Shown here one piece after another: positions 17,756 to 25,189 of a stretch of DNA of 34,266 nt. The stretch comes from Singulisphaera sp. (lineage in GTDB: Bacteria; Planctomycetota; Planctomycetia; Isosphaerales; Isosphaeraceae), in assembly GCA_027451445.1 (NCBI GenBank), contig DAIDJG010000620.1:1-34266 (forward strand). The letters run 5' to 3'. A program made the position numbers and the translations under genes. Within the stretch, counting starts at the first letter, position 1. Every line of letters begins with the position of its first letter. The notes under the pieces were generated by a model. It had not been told where the DNA came from and searched no databases. It saw only the letters and a list, made by a program, of their open reading frames with translations.

Positions 17756-18718
17756 TCACAGTGCGCCGGAGGGTGCGCGACTCTGATCGCTGACCACGTG
17801 AATGACCAGGGCGGTGACGTTGTCCTTTGATTCGTTCTTCAGGGCCAATTCCACAAGCACCTGTGCGGCCTTCTGGGGGTCTTCCACCGATTCGATAATG
17901 CGTGCCAGGTCCTGGTCGCGCACGACGCCCGTCAGGCCGTCGCTGGCGAGTAGGAACCGGTCCCCAAGTTTCACATCAAGCACGCGCACGTCTTCCGGCC
18001 CACTCCGTGCGTCCTTGCACCCCAGATAGAGATACAACACATTTTTGTATTTGTGGTTGGCAAGCTCTTCCTCAGTGATGGTACCCGCATCGACGAGAGC
18101 GTCGGCCAGCGAATGGTCCTTCGTGAGCCGTTCCAGCTTGCCGCCACGCCAGCGATACGCACGGGAATCGCCAATACCGGCGATATACGCCGAGTTCTGA
18201 CGAAAAACGACAGCGACGGCCGTGGTCCCCATGTTGGCGTACTCGGAGACGGCACCCGAGCAGCCGAGGATCTCCTGGTTAGCCTCGGCGAATGACTCGC
18301 GAAGCGCCCCCTGGATCGTCTTCGTCTCAGCCTCTTCCGCGGTGAGTCGCCGCTTCATCGCACTCGGAATGATCTGAACCGCCATGGAGGAGGCATGCTC
18401 GCCCGCAAGCTGCCCCCCCATGCCGTCGGCCACCATGAAGATCGGCAAACTCTCGGGGTTCTCCGGATCGATCGTCGAAGAGCGGTATTCACCGCTAGGC
18501 GGATCTTGCGCGGCGTCCGCTCGGACCGATCGCCGGCCCGGAACGTAAAAGTTGTCTTCGTTATGCTCGCGCACATTGCCGACCGTCGACACGACACCAA
18601 CCCTGAGCACCAGGGCGCCCGACACAAACGTTTGCGAGGGCGTCGTGGCCAGCTCCTCCGTCGGCGCTTGATCCGGGGGAACAGCCGACTCCCCGTTCGG
18701 GCCGAGGATGGTTCGCAT
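17756..18718 (-). CDS. PP2C-family protein phosphatase
   Basis: A 320-residue metal-dependent Ser/Thr phosphatase. The family motifs occur in order: RxHNEDNFY near residue 50, VADGMGG (Asp98), GTTAVAVVF, GIGDSRAYR, TKDHSLADALV and LLASDGLTGVV. An insert of about 30 residues rich in Asp, Pro and Ser (near 60-90) lengthens the loop between the first two motifs. The first 35 residues are proline-rich and probably disordered. No membrane segment is visible, so it is cytoplasmic. The ATG at 18718 has AAGGA five bases upstream; a GTG ten codons earlier has only a weaker GGCGG upstream. The kinase gene follows 69 bases downstream, the usual pairing for reversible phosphorylation. The kinase or its targets are the expected substrates. 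Confidence 0.92.
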   Translation of the reverse strand: MRTILGPNGESAVPPDQAPTEELATTPSQTFVSGALVLRVGVVSTVGNVREHNEDNFYVPGRRSVRADAAQDPPSGEYRSSTIDPENPESLPIFMVADGMGGQLAGEHASSMAVQIIPSAMKRRLTAEEAETKTIQGALRESFAEANQEILGCSGAVSEYANMGTTAVAVVFRQNSAYIAGIGDSRAYRWRGGKLERLTKDHSLADALVDAGTITEEELANHKYKNVLYLYLGCKDARSGPEDVRVLDVKLGDRFLLASDGLTGVVRDQDLARIIESVEDPQKAAQVLVELALKNESKDNVTALVIHVVSDQSRAPSGAL

Positions 18719-19068
18719 CAGATTCCTTAAACGCAAAAACCAGGTCACCTCAACCGCCTTTGCTCGCTGGTTCGCAGCCCCGGACGTCCTCGCTCATTGA
18801 TCCGTACAGCCATTCGGCTACGGTCTGGCGGAATTCAACCACGAGTTCGAGTATACGTCAAACCTTTCTTCATTTTACCAGGGACCGGACCCGAGAGGAG
18901 TACACTGCTTCGTGAGAATCCCGAGAAATCCGTTTCCCTCTCGCGCTGTCCATCGATTGGGAACGCACGGACTCTCCTGGCGTCGACAATGACACCACCG
19001 GAACCGGGCTGCCTTTCAACCTTAAGAAACAAGTCCGGGCATCAAAGACCCGCGGTTTTTCGCGGCAT
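18719..19068. other. Intergenic region upstream of the phosphatase-kinase pair
   Basis: About 350 bases between the end of the deacetylase gene and the start of the phosphatase gene, both on the minus strand. It should hold the promoter of the signalling pair. No convincing gene, RNA or strong inverted repeat was seen. Short frames crossing it lack ribosome-binding sites and protein-like composition. Confidence 0.4.
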
Positions 19069-19806
19069 TCACGTTTTCGCGTGTTGCGGCGCCGCCCAGC
19101 GCATCAGGTCGTCGACTCCGACCGAACGGTACGTCATGAACAATTCCCCGGCTTCGAAACCGGCCGTGAGTCCATGATACCGGTTCATCGTCTCGACCGC
19201 CTTGAAGATTCCCGCCTTGTGAGGAGGGAACTGCGACGCATAGCACCGGATGGCCTCGATCTTCACGTTCAGGGTCGAACCGATGTCGGCGATGAAGTAG
19301 CCGGACGCCTCCGGCATCTCCATACCATGCAGCGCGATCGTAAAGCTGAGCTGGTTCGTGACGGTGTGCACATGCAGTCCGTCGAAGTATTCGTCCCACT
19401 TGCTCAGCCGGCTGTAGAAGACAGCCGCGTCGGTGATCAGCATCGCCTGATGATGGTCGGGAGACGCGAGCACCGTCTTTCCCCCAAAACCAAGTACGAC
19501 CTTGGGCCGGTGACGGCGAAATACCTTCGCCAGGGCAACGCGTGCCTCGAAGGTGTCGAACAAGCGCCGATTCGGCAGGTTCAGGTTGAGGCGGAGCGCA
19601 ACACCAAGAATCTCGGCCGCCTTCTGGGCCTCCGCCAACCGAGCGTCGGGACCGGGCGAATGTGGCGTCGGCTCTCCGTCAGTAAGGTCGACGATACCAA
19701 CCTTGTAGCCCTTATTCGTCAGCCGTGCGAGCGTCCCGCCACACGCGATCTCGACGTCGTCGGGGTGAGCGCCCACTGCGATCAAATCCAACTCGATGTC
19801 GCTCAC
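19069..19806 (-). CDS. LmbE/PIG-L family N-acetylglucosamine deacetylase, BshB1-like
   Basis: A zinc-dependent deacetylase of 245 residues. The signature AHPDDVEI (His14, Asp16, Asp17) and the second metal region SPDHHQA (His118/119) are both present, as is the RRLFDT region typical of the BshB1 group. BshB1 deacetylates GlcNAc-malate in bacillithiol synthesis. Length (BshB1 is about 235-240) and the GxxNLxLPNR-like segment fit this, but related enzymes act on mycothiol precursors or other GlcNAc compounds. No bshA or bshC is in the window. The GTG at 19806 is chosen because AGGAGG lies ten bases upstream and the conserved strand begins five codons later; the open frame continues to 19941 without meaning. 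The gene is alone between regions of 350 and 205 bases. Confidence 0.8.
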
Positions 19807-20011
19807 CTCGGGCGTGCCTCCTGACCCCCCATCCTGACTCCTCCCCTCGTGCCGCCAACCGCAGGATCGTTGGAACACTATACTCGGGGCGTCAAGCTCA
19901 CGGCAACCTACGCACGTCGCCGGTGAACCGTACGGTCGCAATTAAGTTTTCATATCTTGTAATGCCCGAGAGCATTGACGATTGCCGCGGCCAGCAACCT
20001 CAGGCCGTCGA

Positions 20012-21277
20012 TCAATCGCCGGGCTCTGTCGTCTTGCTCACGGCGAGCAGAAACGTGGGATTGATGGACTCGAACCGCATTCGATCCATTTGCTCAATGC
20101 CTCGGCTGATCGCAACGTTCCAGACCTGGACCGAGCCCGCGAGCCTGCGCAGCGTCTCCAGCGCCGTGGCGAGGCCATCGATCGTCGCGACGTTCACGGC
20201 CAGGCGGCCTCCTTCGGCGAGACGGTCGTATGCCACGCTCAGCACCTGGGTCACCTGACGACCCGTTCCGCCGACGAAGATGGCGTCGGGATCGGGCAGA
20301 CTTGCGAGCACCTCGGGCGCTCGGCCCGCGACAGGGCGAATATTGGGGACACCAAAGGACTCGGCATTGGCCTGGATCAGCGCGATATCGGCCGGCTCCG
20401 GTTCAATCGCGTACACCATTCCCTGCGACGCGAGCTGCGCAGCCTCGATTGCCACGGAGCCCGAACCCGCCCCGATGTCCCACACCACGCTTTCGGGGCG
20501 AATGTCGAGCTGTGCCAACGCGATCGAGCGAACCTCGGCCTGCGTAATCAGCCCCCGTTTGGGCTGTGTCTGCGCAAAGGCGTCGTCGGCGTTACCAAAG
20601 AGTCGGTAGCGGCTGGCCCGGCTGGCCCGATCTGGGCGATTCGGCTTGCGCACCAGGATCAACACGTTGAGCGGGTCGAACTCCATACCGATCAAGTCCG
20701 ACAGCTCGGCTTGAGTCACGCGTTCGTCGGGTGAACCAAGGTTCTCACACACGAAGGCCCGGAAATAGTCGATTCCCCGGTCGAGGAGCGCCTTGGCGAG
20801 CCGCGCGGGCGGATGTTCGTCGCTCGAGAACAGGCCGACTTTCTCGGCGGTCCGGATGCGGTCGATTACCGCTTCGAGGGGACGGCCAGCCAGGTTCGTT
20901 AAGTACGCGTCCTCCCAGCTCTCCTTCACTCGGGCGAAGGCCAACTGCATGCTGCTGACGTGCGGAACCACCTCGAACAGTTCTTTACCCAGCCGGTCGC
21001 AGAGATAGCGTGCCACACCGTAGAACAACGGGTCGCCGCTGCTGACCAGTACGGGCTTACCAGACCTGAGGGCCTCGCGAACCTGCCGCAATGCGGCGGG
21101 CATGTCGGGGTCGAGCTCGACTTTTTTCCCCGGCAGCGACTCGAGCAGTCGAAGCGTCGCGGGTGCGCCCAGGATGAGGTCAGACTCGGAGACCAGCCGG
21201 CGTGCGGACTCCGTCATGCCGGCTAGCCCGTCGTCGCCGATGCCTACGATGACGAGCTTCGAGCGTGGTTCAGACAA
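20012..21277 (-). CDS. cobL: Fused precorrin-6Y C5,15-methyltransferase / decarboxylase (CbiE-CbiT)
   Basis: A 421-residue bifunctional enzyme of cobalamin synthesis that methylates the corrin ring at C5 and C15 and removes the acetate on ring C. Residues 1 to about 200 form the CbiE tetrapyrrole methylase (VIVGIGDDGLAG at the start; SSGDPLFYGVARYL). The rest is the CbiT domain, with the SAM-binding WDIGAGSGSVAIEAA and FVGGTGRQV. A TTG start is implied because no ATG or GTG precedes the essential first strand; AGAGGAA lies eight bases upstream of it. The gene follows the hydrolase by 111 bases. No other cobalamin gene and no recognisable cobalamin riboswitch lies in the window, so the pathway must be encoded elsewhere. 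Confidence 0.92.
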   Translation of the reverse strand: MSEPRSKLVIVGIGDDGLAGMTESARRLVSESDLILGAPATLRLLESLPGKKVELDPDMPAALRQVREALRSGKPVLVSSGDPLFYGVARYLCDRLGKELFEVVPHVSSMQLAFARVKESWEDAYLTNLAGRPLEAVIDRIRTAEKVGLFSSDEHPPARLAKALLDRGIDYFRAFVCENLGSPDERVTQAELSDLIGMEFDPLNVLILVRKPNRPDRASRASRYRLFGNADDAFAQTQPKRGLITQAEVRSIALAQLDIRPESVVWDIGAGSGSVAIEAAQLASQGMVYAIEPEPADIALIQANAESFGVPNIRPVAGRAPEVLASLPDPDAIFVGGTGRQVTQVLSVAYDRLAEGGRLAVNVATIDGLATALETLRRLAGSVQVWNVAISRGIEQMDRMRFESINPTFLLAVSKTTEPGD

Positions 21278-21388
21278 CGTGGGATTCCTCTCAACGCGTT
21301 CGGTCTCGACCCCGGCGCATCACCCGCTGCAAGCGGTGCGGCGGTGCACTTGCTTCGGATCTCAGCACACCACGTTCCCGCGACGAAT

Positions 21389-22351
21389 TCAAGCGCTCTC
21401 CGGGCGGTCGCTCTCCGGCCTGGGTTCGTTCGGACAGCCTCCGGGAGCACAAGGGAGAAGCCAATCGTTGATCACACTCGCGAGCGCCTCGGCGTGTGTA
21501 AAGTGTGGCTGGTGCCCAACGAGCGGCATGATCACACCCTCCGCCCTGGGCAGCGCCTGGGATAACTCGTCGAAATGGCGGCGATGGACAATCCGATCCT
21601 CGTTGCCCTGGAGGAGGAGCACTTCGTTAGGAATCTCCGACAGACTCGGCCTCAGATCGAGCTGCGCGAGCAAGTCGAGGCGATGCGCCAATGCGGCGAT
21701 GGGTGTCAACGCATTCTGCTCAACGTAATATGTCCAGCGGTCTTCGATGACCGCGGGGAATTGGCTCTGATTGTTGTAGCTCAAGATCGTGTGGTGAAGC
21801 GGCAATCGGCCGACTGTCCCCGGCACGAGCCGGCCCAGCGTCAACGCGATCCGCTCGGCAGCCGTAAAACGCCTGCGTGCAAACGCTCCCTGGACGACCG
21901 CCTTGGGAAACCGACGGGGCTCCCGATGCAAGGCGCGAAAGGTGATCGTTGATCCAAAGGACAAGCCCACGAGGAAGACACGACCGAAGTTCAGGTGCTC
22001 GATCAGTCCGAACAGGTCATCCACCAGGTGTTCGTGACTGATCCGGCGCAGTTGGGCGCGGTCATCGGCGTGCTCGCCCGGGTAGTCGTAGAGAACGGTT
22101 CGGAAACGGCTCGCCAGGCGATTCAGGACGATCGAATAACCGCGGTAGGTCGACGCAATCCCTGGGATCAAAATCAGCGGCGGCCCTTCGCCCAGCACGC
22201 GATACGACATGCGGTAGCGCGGCCCTTCCCAGATACCGGTGAGTGCGGATTGATCGTACGCGGCGACCTCCGCGCGCATGTTCGCCGGAGCGGGGCAGGG
22301 GGGACGGGGCGGGACTTCAGCGGTGAGGGAGGGCGTCTCGATCTCAGACAC
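21389..22351 (-). CDS. Alpha/beta hydrolase coupled to the AmmB-like gene
   Basis: A soluble alpha/beta-hydrolase of 320 residues. The nucleophile elbow is GLSFGS (Ser131), the acid is probably Asp252 in QGNEDRIV, and the histidine is His280 in LVGHQPHF; the oxyanion region is LIPGIAST. About 40 residues of proline-rich sequence precede the domain and some 20 follow it. The GTG start overlaps the last 8 bases of the upstream gene (GTGTCTGA), so translation is probably coupled and the two proteins are likely to act together. The substrate is unknown. The pattern fits the general family of esterases, haloperoxidase-like enzymes and C-C hydrolases, with no feature that picks one of them. A lid region with RxxPGTVGRLPLHH lies between residues 175 and 187. 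Confidence 0.87.
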   Translation of the reverse strand: MSEIETPSLTAEVPPRPPCPAPANMRAEVAAYDQSALTGIWEGPRYRMSYRVLGEGPPLILIPGIASTYRGYSIVLNRLASRFRTVLYDYPGEHADDRAQLRRISHEHLVDDLFGLIEHLNFGRVFLVGLSFGSTITFRALHREPRRFPKAVVQGAFARRRFTAAERIALTLGRLVPGTVGRLPLHHTILSYNNQSQFPAVIEDRWTYYVEQNALTPIAALAHRLDLLAQLDLRPSLSEIPNEVLLLQGNEDRIVHRRHFDELSQALPRAEGVIMPLVGHQPHFTHAEALASVINDWLLPCAPGGCPNEPRPESDRPESA

Positions 22352-23609
22352 GGGAGCTTACCTCGAGGTCGTCAGTGGCATCAAAAGCGAGGCTGGCGAA
22401 GGTCACGCAACACGTGCGCGCCGGATTGACCGCCTGATCGTAGCGCAGGATCCGGCCCTGCGTGGGTCCCATTGCATGAAGCATCGTGTAGGTGGCCGAC
22501 AGTCCGCAAACTCGCCAACGGTCCTCGACGCGAGCGACCGTCTCAAACCAGCCTTTCGGGTCGCTCTCGACCGCGCGGTCCAGCAGCGTCCCATCGAATG
22601 AACGAACGCGCTCCAACGTACCACGATCCACGGGTTCAGGGTCGCCGAACTCGGGCCCGACGTGACAGAGGTCGATGCCGCCGACGTAGGCAACCTTCTT
22701 CCCGCTGGCTTCCTCAGTGAGGCGCAGAGCCTCCACAAACCGACGCACTTCCGGCGCCTCGATCGGGTCAACGCCTTGCCTCATCAGGTCGTGATAGGAC
22801 CCGACGAGCAGCGGAACGATCGAGAACCGCCTGCGGTTTCCAAAGAGGTACTGGAGGAATACGACCTGAAACTCGACGGAATGCTCCGCGCGGTGAACGA
22901 GCTCGTCGTCGAACAGCTCCTCGCCCGCGAGGGACGCGAGGCGATCGACGTAGTCGCGATCCGTTGGGACGACGCCAAGCGGGGTCGCAAAGTCCTTTCG
23001 AGTCAGCACGAACCGCCTACGGCAGCGTTGATGGGCGACGCCGAGGATGACAAAGGTGTCGGCGTCAGACGACTCGACGAGCGCGCGGTAAGCCCACGTG
23101 TAGACGGGTCCTCCCCGCTCGTAGTCAATATGCGGACTGAGCACGCCGCGGAGCCGGCCCCCAGAGTCGATCTTAGGTGGTCCTGGCCGCCCCGCGCCGC
23201 GTTCATGTGCGAACAGCCGATCGAGCTGCGCGCGGAGGCCGTGCTCCGCGCCTCGATACGACAGGCCCGCGAAGGCCGGGGGCCGGACGAGTTCCCGTTG
23301 ATAACGCTCGTAAAACGCGCTAAACGTGGGGCCCTCGAGTACCATCGACTGATCGAGCTCAGCCACGATTCGCTGCAACTCCACAACATCGATGAGCGTC
23401 CCAGTCTCGCGCTGATGGCGGTCGCGGATGTCTTCGAGAGTGTGCTTGCCGTTGAAATGGCGGATTACGTGATTGTAAAGCGCAGAGGGAAGCAAAACCG
23501 GCTCGGCGAGCACGCGCGACGGATCGTGCAAAAGCACGTACGTCCGCCCGTCGTGATGCAGGGACTGGTCGGTGAGGGGACGCAATTTGGGCCGATCGAG
23601 GGAGGCCAT
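22344..23609 (-). CDS. amrB: AmmB/Memo-family protein with N-terminal PqqD-like domain
   Basis: A 421-residue protein in two parts. Residues of about 10-100 resemble a PqqD-like winged helix: DGRTYVLLHDPSRVLAEPV, then FNGKHTLEDIRDRH and a helix ending in LDQSMVLEGP. PqqD-type domains bind peptide substrates of radical-SAM and related enzymes. From about 110 the Memo domain runs to the end: FAGLSYRG, LSPHIDYERGG, ILGVAHQ, HSVEFQVVFLQYL, GGIDLCHVG. Memo proteins are related to non-haem-iron dioxygenases and in bacteria belong to the AmmeMemoRadiSam group, whose biochemical role is unsettled. Neither the AMMECR1 nor the radical-SAM partner is in this window. The ATG at 23609 is used; GTG codons two codons upstream are possible. 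The downstream hydrolase overlaps its stop. Confidence 0.85.
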   Translation of the reverse strand: MASLDRPKLRPLTDQSLHHDGRTYVLLHDPSRVLAEPVLLPSALYNHVIRHFNGKHTLEDIRDRHQRETGTLIDVVELQRIVAELDQSMVLEGPTFSAFYERYQRELVRPPAFAGLSYRGAEHGLRAQLDRLFAHERGAGRPGPPKIDSGGRLRGVLSPHIDYERGGPVYTWAYRALVESSDADTFVILGVAHQRCRRRFVLTRKDFATPLGVVPTDRDYVDRLASLAGEELFDDELVHRAEHSVEFQVVFLQYLFGNRRRFSIVPLLVGSYHDLMRQGVDPIEAPEVRRFVEALRLTEEASGKKVAYVGGIDLCHVGPEFGDPEPVDRGTLERVRSFDGTLLDRAVESDPKGWFETVARVEDRWRVCGLSATYTMLHAMGPTQGRILRYDQAVNPARTCCVTFASLAFDATDDLEVSSRV

Positions 23610-24271
23610 GACCACGACTCTTGGCTCTGTGGCGGGGTCGAACCTTCACGAAAACTTGCGTGCAGCGGCGGTAGGCCGCTTCTTCGTGATTGTCCGGCAA
23701 GAGCCGAAGAGGGTCAAGCGCTGGCGCGCGGTCCGCGGGGGGGCATTCCAATCAGCGGCAGGGGCCAGACGGGAGGAGGCGCTTCCTGCACAGGTCCGGG
23801 TTGCATGATAGATTCTCCCTAGAGTGGATCGAGAAATCAGCAGATTACCGACTCATGCCCGCTCACGAGGATTCTATGCAAAGATCGTTCCGCGACAAGG
23901 AGGGGTGTCCCGGCAGACGACTCAAACGGGCCCTTCTTCGACCCGGACGCTTCGCCGTATCATGTTGGCGAATCATGGTTAGCTGCTTCGTGAGAAAGCA
24001 TCGCGAGGTTTGCGGATTGAGGTGGTTTGCGAGCGGGGTGATGGCATGGGTCTCGGGGCTGTCTGCCGTCCAGGCGACCTGTGCTCAATATATGGGCGAT
24101 CGGGCTCGTGAGCGGCAAAACCGTGAGCCTTGGATTCACTCATTGCTGATCTGGCCCGTTGAACGACTCTCTGGTATTCTCCGCCCCGCTGGTCGGGTCG
24201 CTCCGGTCTGGCTCCCCATTGAGCAGGGGGACCGGAGGCGCCTGGGCACAGGGCATGGAGGACGTTAGCCC
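23610..24271. other. Divergent intergenic region with one doubtful open frame
   Basis: About 660 bases between the AmmB-like gene (leftward) and the LolA-like gene (rightward). A plus-strand frame is open from 23690 to 24268 and from an ATG at 23853 would encode 138 residues, including a hydrophobic stretch (WFASGVMAWVSGLSAVQA). Its use of AGA, AGG and TGT codons and high Arg/Trp content differ from the neighbouring genes, and no ribosome-binding site precedes the ATG. I regard it as probably non-coding. No RNA gene was recognised. Confidence 0.4.
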
Positions 24272-25189
24272 ATGCGTCGGTACATCGGAAAGACCCGTTC
24301 CTGGACGGCCGAGACGCTTCTCATCGCGGCGCTCGCCGGCACCCTTCTCGATTCGACGTCGCAAGCGCAAGCGCCCCCGCGTCAAAACCCTGGGGTCGGA
24401 AACGCCCCGGCTGTGGTCCAGCGGCCCAAAAAAGAGATGGGCGCTCTTCTCGCGGACTGGGAGCGGCAAAGCGCGCTGCTCAAGACGCTCGACGTCAAGA
24501 TCGTGCGAATTGACAAGTCGGAGAAATGGGGCGTCGATGAAACGTTCGAGGGCCGTGCCATTTTGAAAGCCCCGAACCTTGCCATGCTCCACTTCGACTC
24601 AGTCGTCCAGCAACCTGGACAGCCCAAGAAGCTGGTGCCTCACGAGCAGATCCGATGCACTGGCAATGAAGTGTGGCAGTTCAATTTCGGTGCGGAAATC
24701 GTTGCCGTTTTCCCGCTCGACAAGGACGAACGCAAGCGAGCACTCGAAGAGGGGCCGCTGCCTTTCCTGTTCAATATGAAGAAGGCCGAAGCGCTGGCGC
24801 GCTATGAGATGGTCCTGGTGAAAGAGAGTCCTGAGCAGAAGAGCTATATCATTTCGGTCACACCGAAGCAGACGATCGACCAGGAAAGCTTCAGCAAGGC
24901 ATTCGTGGTGCTCGACATGGAGTTCCTGCTACCGAAACGAATCTTTCTGATCTCTCCCAACGGTAAGGACAGCAAGGACTACCAACTCAACGACATCAAG
25001 CCGAACATCAAGGTCAGCGACGCGAACTTCCAACCGGTTGTGCCGATGAAGGCGGCAAAAGTGGATGGGAAGGTCCAACCGTGGAAGGTCGACCGCAATC
25101 CTGGCGGCGACGTCCGGCCGGCGGGACCGAACAACGGACCGGCGGTGCAGCCCGCCCTGCGACCGGGCACCCGTCCAGCTCCACGCTGA
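24272..25189 (+). CDS. Exported LolA-like protein (planctomycete family)
   Basis: A 305-residue exported protein. A signal peptide with core TLLIAALAGTLL is followed by cleavage near SQAQA. The body from about residue 55 to 255 alternates strands in the manner of LolA/LppX-type lipoprotein carriers: FEGRAILKAPNLAMLHFDS, NEVWQFNFGAEIVAVFPL, AEALARYEMVLVKES, FLLPKRIFLISPNGKDSKDYQLND. The pattern agrees with an uncharacterised domain common in planctomycetes. The last 50 residues are proline/arginine-rich and likely disordered. The ATG has GGAGGA nine bases upstream. If the fold is right it could bind a hydrophobic ligand between membranes, but the fold is inferred from pattern, not shown. It lies 269 bases upstream of the NfeD-flotillin genes on the same strand. 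Confidence 0.8.
   Translation: MRRYIGKTRSWTAETLLIAALAGTLLDSTSQAQAPPRQNPGVGNAPAVVQRPKKEMGALLADWERQSALLKTLDVKIVRIDKSEKWGVDETFEGRAILKAPNLAMLHFDSVVQQPGQPKKLVPHEQIRCTGNEVWQFNFGAEIVAVFPLDKDERKRALEEGPLPFLFNMKKAEALARYEMVLVKESPEQKSYIISVTPKQTIDQESFSKAFVVLDMEFLLPKRIFLISPNGKDSKDYQLNDIKPNIKVSDANFQPVVPMKAAKVDGKVQPWKVDRNPGGDVRPAGPNNGPAVQPALRPGTRPAPR

Follow-up and report, generated by a model that had tools for sequence, protein, structure and literature searches.

A short peptide and a PqqD-fold domain stand beside a modifying enzyme in PQQ synthesis (PqqA/PqqD/PqqE), and in the cyanobactin heterocyclases LynD and TruD an RRE that binds the leader peptide shares one chain with the modifying enzyme. The gene described here likewise joins a PqqD/RRE-like domain to an enzyme domain and adjoins a gene for a short peptide. 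It differs from the PQQ system in lacking a radical-SAM partner, in the fusion of its domain to a Memo domain, and in a peptide without the Glu/Tyr core of PqqA. LynD and TruD, its best structural matches, have a YcaO ATP-dependent cyclodehydratase in place of Memo and act with longer precursor peptides. The closest sequence relative found for the N-terminal domain is the wHTH at the N terminus of planctomycete M50/HlyD proteins (contig C515 of the same genome), which have a membrane protease/HlyD-type module where the fusion has Memo.

The Memo domain is shared with AmmB (TIGR04336) and human MEMO1, which have the same three metal ligands as the fusion. Canonical AmmB and MEMO1 lack the N-terminal domain, and the fusion gene has no linkage to the AmmeMemoRadiSam triad of its own genome, to which it is paralogous. 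MEMO1 binds iron in the manner of extradiol dioxygenases, showed no dioxygenase activity on the substrates tried, and has a molecular function that is unknown even in humans (PMC11081632). RRE-Memo fusions receive one sentence in the description of the updated RRE-Finder, where they are called "unprecedented" in RiPPs (Bregman et al. 2025, PMC12710340). Those fusions likewise join an RRE domain to PF01875, but the main text names neither an organism nor a substrate for them, and describes no partner peptide and no analysis of the metal site (PMC12710340). The fusion class is already known as a prediction; what is new is its paralogy with the triad and a conserved peptide gene in Isosphaeraceae. 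Neither the peptide gene, nor the triad paralogy, nor any work on the fusion protein turned up in the literature searched, outside which most subscription journals lie.

The window is the whole 34,266-nucleotide stretch of DNA that was analysed (Table 1). The original prediction gave the correct coordinates for the fusion gene, whose coding sequence lies on the minus strand, with an ATG at 23609 and a stop codon ending at 22344; an in-frame GTG is also present at 23615. The N-terminal domain is found in all 19 full-length homologues (45-64% identity, mostly Isosphaeraceae), and no homologues of the fusion protein were found among plasmids. Downstream, positions 17756-22351 encode the hydrolase, a CbiE/CbiT-type methyltransferase, a PIG-L deacetylase (BshB1-like) and a PP2C phosphatase. 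This synteny is kept in Isosphaeraceae, several of which appear to have lost the hydrolase.

Table 1. Features of the fusion locus, with positions in the window.
Feature	Position	Strand	Remarks
Alpha/beta hydrolase gene	21389..22351	-	8-nt overlap with fusion gene; not found in several homologous loci
PqqD/RRE-like + Memo-domain fusion protein, 421 aa	22344..23609	-	Homologues 45-64% identical, mostly Isosphaeraceae
Memo (LigB-like fold) domain, residues 109-406	22392..23285	-	PF01875, TIGR04336; Foldseek to MEMO1 7kq8 E=7e-17
Cys368 codon	22506..22508	-	Equivalent of MEMO1 metal ligand C244
His193 codon	23031..23033	-	Equivalent of MEMO1 metal ligand H81
His160 codon	23130..23132	-	Equivalent of MEMO1 metal ligand H49
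N-terminal PqqD/RRE-like domain, residues 1-108	23286..23609	-	
Promoter-like TTGACC-N17-GACAAT for fusion gene	23689..23717	-	Overlaps peptide stop codon
Conserved 30-aa peptide gene	23714..23806	-	MQPGPVQEAPPPVWPLPLIGMPPRGPRASA; candidate substrate
Shine-Dalgarno-like AGGGAGA of peptide gene	23814..23820	-	SD-like site in 18/19 loci vs 13% background
Conserved neighbour, divergent from peptide gene	24272..25189	+	Without Pfam match

Single-sequence scans return little for the N-terminal domain. When the fusion protein is scanned by itself against Pfam and NCBIfam, residues 1-108 give no PqqD match and do not reach PF05402 or TIGR03859 above the curated cut-off; one of 20 close homologues reaches PqqD in the profile scan, with E=0.0013 to 0.0024. 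Run against PDB sequences, the N-terminal profile gave nothing relevant. When alignments are compared by hhalign, 68 N-terminal domains match 28 planctomycete PqqD sequences with a score of 44.3 (probability 93%, pairwise E=3e-7). The highest score among 100 column-shuffled PqqD alignments was 25.5, the reversed alignment scored 16.3, and unrelated natural families scored no more than 18.8; on these controls, a chance resemblance to PqqD was rejected. The N-terminal domains match the wHTH of planctomycete M50/HlyD proteins (~750 aa) with a probability of 98.8%, and the wHTH domains of these proteins in turn match PqqD at 97.3%. M50 protease/HlyD-like membrane proteins with this N-terminal wHTH include the one at L115:2011-4221 and its ~750-aa relatives.

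The structural evidence points the same way. The N-terminal domain has strands at residues 13-19, 22-28 and 38-41, followed by helices at 42-47, 58-69 and 75-87, which is the order of elements by which Bregman et al. define RREs (PMC12710340). Its five best PDB matches in Foldseek are LynD/TruD heterocyclases with probabilities of 0.97-1.00, with E values of only 0.015 to 0.05, a TMq of ~0.5 and the matched target region not displayed. On this evidence we place the domain in the PqqD/RRE superfamily, and it may bind a peptide. The original prediction that the first ~100 residues are PqqD-like is borne out by the hhalign scores above controls and by the LynD/TruD matches; a fold unrelated to PqqD, which it had named as its refutation, is not what was found. 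An apparent case of the N-terminal domain without Memo, in genome G034, was set aside, as the remainder of that gene reads as N.

Residues 109-406 match PF01875 (E=1.7e-38) and TIGR04336 (E=1.9e-32), and human MEMO1 is the best Foldseek match, with LigB-type extradiol dioxygenases next. The iron or copper of MEMO1 is held by H49, H81 and C244 (PMC11081632), and 57 of the 65 fused homologues keep the equivalent His, His and Cys. In three others (L081, L098, L100) Asp replaces the Cys, so that the ligands are His-His-Asp as in classical 2-His-1-carboxylate dioxygenases, and five have otherwise lost or altered ligands. All three ligands are gone from L106 and L107 (genomes G259 and G155, of one planctomycete family), which suggests a non-metal role for the fused Memo domain in that family.

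A search for conserved short open reading frames identified a gene of 30 codons (23806 to 23714) on the same strand, 104 nt upstream of the fusion ATG. The peptide is present in 19 of 22 Isosphaeraceae and related loci with sufficient upstream sequence and has the consensus MxPxPIREIAPPAWPLPLIAxxPRGPRR, in which the PP, LPLI (FPFI in L033) and Arg are invariant and the Trp, missing in L020, is nearly so. Across a 22-codon core, pN/pS is 0.37 in frame and 1.27 and 1.86 in the shifted frames, and minority-base fractions at codon positions 1-3 are 0.20, 0.13 and 0.45, a third-position excess that none of 20,000 column permutations matched (p<5e-5). These two measures reject a noncoding short frame. 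The frame behaves as a translated gene under codon-level purifying selection. A RiPP-type pathway would have a short precursor gene next to its RRE-containing enzyme; the gene found here is mostly adjacent to the fusion, and its peptide is a candidate substrate. The original prediction was right that a small peptide gene exists, but had expected it near the radical-SAM partner; instead it adjoins the fusion gene upstream.

The best explanation, advanced tentatively, is that the fusion is a stand-alone, RRE-guided Memo metalloenzyme that modifies a peptide without radical SAM, with the upstream 30-mer as its likeliest substrate in Isosphaeraceae. In the scheme that we infer for substrate, chemistry and choice of metal, the N-terminal PqqD-like domain would capture a short peptide and present it to the mononuclear Fe/Cu site of Memo (His160, His193, Cys368). 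The proline-rich hydrophobic segment of the peptide would probably pair with strand 38-41, and the Memo site would probably oxidise the peptide, or modify it by redox chemistry or otherwise, with no radical-SAM partner. The likeliest peptide in Isosphaeraceae would be the 30-residue product of the gene directly upstream, whose conserved Trp, the residue that L020 lacks, is an obvious candidate modification site. Against the scheme, the surroundings of the fusion gene showed neither a protease nor an exporter of the kinds usual in RiPP clusters.

Memo, a substrate-recognition fold and one short conserved peptide together make the question of Memo function directly testable; if the peptide is the substrate, it would be the first testable one for this enigmatic family. 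An extension of this scheme, which we regard as doubtful, is that Memo domains act as metalloenzymes that oxidatively modify peptides or proteins, with RRE-Memo and its PPxWPLPLI peptide forming a new radical-SAM-independent RiPP-like class. If that were true, the Memo family, whose conservation extends from archaea to humans, would gain in this peptide its first natural substrate.

The alternative that survives best, unlikely but a serious contender, is that the PqqD-like domain is structural or serves dimerisation or protein docking, that Memo handles a metal or small molecule, and that the peptide is an unrelated small protein sharing the neighbourhood. The closest relatives found for the domain belong to M50/HlyD membrane proteins and are not proven RREs, which favours this account; its best structural matches, on the other hand, are heterocyclases that contain an RRE. 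The distribution of the peptide also cuts both ways. Among 45 Isosphaeraceae genomes, 28 have peptide and fusion, two the fusion only, two the peptide only and 13 neither. The peptide is found at E<0.001, in single copy, in 29 of these genomes, and a divergent copy found by local search in G303 raises the count to 30; the fusion is likewise present in 30. Expressed against the alternative, the peptide occurs in 28 of 30 fusion genomes and is absent from 13 of 15 without the fusion. The corresponding Fisher values (p=1.3e-7 by genome, 0.0017 by genus) are inflated by shared ancestry and are not true probabilities, and the two counts are not independent, since the 22 loci are mostly from species that are also represented among the 45 genomes.

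The two genes are adjacent in 26 of the 28 genomes that have both. The other two, G294 and G295, keep the peptide beside the divergent neighbour and the fusion elsewhere on the genome, and this retention of both genes apart from each other also speaks against a merely shared neighbourhood. At L019, L027 and L028 no hydrolase was found, and at L025 no divergent neighbour, yet the peptide stays with the fusion at all four loci. For the alternative, the peptide persists without the fusion in two genomes: in G298 it remains with the divergent upstream neighbour, and in G301 it directly precedes the hydrolase gene. In G314 and G316 the fusion is present and the peptide is not detectable.

Outside Isosphaeraceae, the absence of a conserved peptide next to the fusion is a further point for the structural account. 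In the sample of the planctomycete phylum, the only convincing peptide match was in the genome of the window itself; the weak profile matches in other planctomycetes, among those read, looked like pieces of unrelated frames, with strings resembling RTAPSPIRNCAPPAW recurring among them. In other planctomycetes, 78 fusion loci yielded no conserved short peptide next to the fusion, and the candidates there looked like shadow ORFs. Because an adjacent peptide is lacking there, the substrate of an RRE-guided Memo enzyme in these bacteria may be encoded elsewhere or be a larger protein, or the role of the domain may differ.

It is improbable that the short frame is instead a regulatory leader or ribosome-arrest peptide controlling the downstream fusion gene, although it is short, proline-rich and directly upstream, with its own ribosome-binding site. 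A TTGAC motif overlaps the peptide stop codon in 15 of 19 loci and lies at most 20 nt after it in the other four, and a promoter-like element at this place would start the fusion transcript downstream of the frame. The same element precedes the fusion in L026 and L030, which have no peptide upstream. The fusion gene is thus probably transcribed from a promoter of its own, which is evidence against the idea that the frame is only a leader of the fusion mRNA. Retention of the frame where the fusion is absent or elsewhere is also at odds with a leader, as is the lack of any Rfam family around the fusion gene. A promoter upstream of the peptide gene is present in the window and in only 3 of 18 loci, and is not conserved.

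Evidence that the fusion stands apart from AmmeMemoRadiSam comes from its own genome and from its relatives. Apart from the fusion, the genome (10.9 Mb, 622 contigs) has one copy each of the AmmeMemoSam radical SAM, AMMECR1 and Memo, and contig C401 carries the three joined in one protein of 1052 aa (L037:503-3661), which is not near the fusion gene; no linkage of the fusion gene to radical SAM or AMMECR1 was found. In a sample of 294 planctomycete genomes, 80 have the fused N-terminal domain (M50 proteins excluded). Radical SAM and AMMECR1 are both present in 47 of these, one partner in 11 and neither in 22, and at least two Memo genes occur in 46 of the 47. The 22 partnerless genomes include near-complete ones (96-100%; G002, G095, G172, G251, G270, G278), and those sampled have altered metal sites (L101 from G002, L105 from G251). 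Others, at 90-93% completeness, at which sequence may be missing, have an intact H/H/C set (e.g. G109, G162, G203, G249). In a FastTree phylogeny of Memo domains, all 65 fused proteins group in a single clade that excludes the 21 canonical Memos (support 0.805). Given the partnerless genomes, the extra Memo and the separate clade, the fusion is a further paralogue, one whose function need not involve a radical-SAM enzyme.

The original prediction, that the protein is AmmB of AmmeMemoRadiSam and acts on a peptide together with radical SAM and AMMECR1, is therefore very improbable: TIGR04336 does call the domain AmmB and most fusion genomes have both partners, but the triad carries its own fused Memo, nearly all partner-bearing genomes have more than one Memo, 22 of 80 lack both partners, and the fusion is unlinked to them. 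"AmmeMemoRadiSam system protein B" is a misleading annotation for this paralogue. The 1052-aa protein itself consists of radical SAM, AMMECR1, a stretch of ~200 residues that matches nothing in Pfam, and a canonical Memo; further genomes of the class (G048, G069, G181, G227, G238) have open frames of comparable length.
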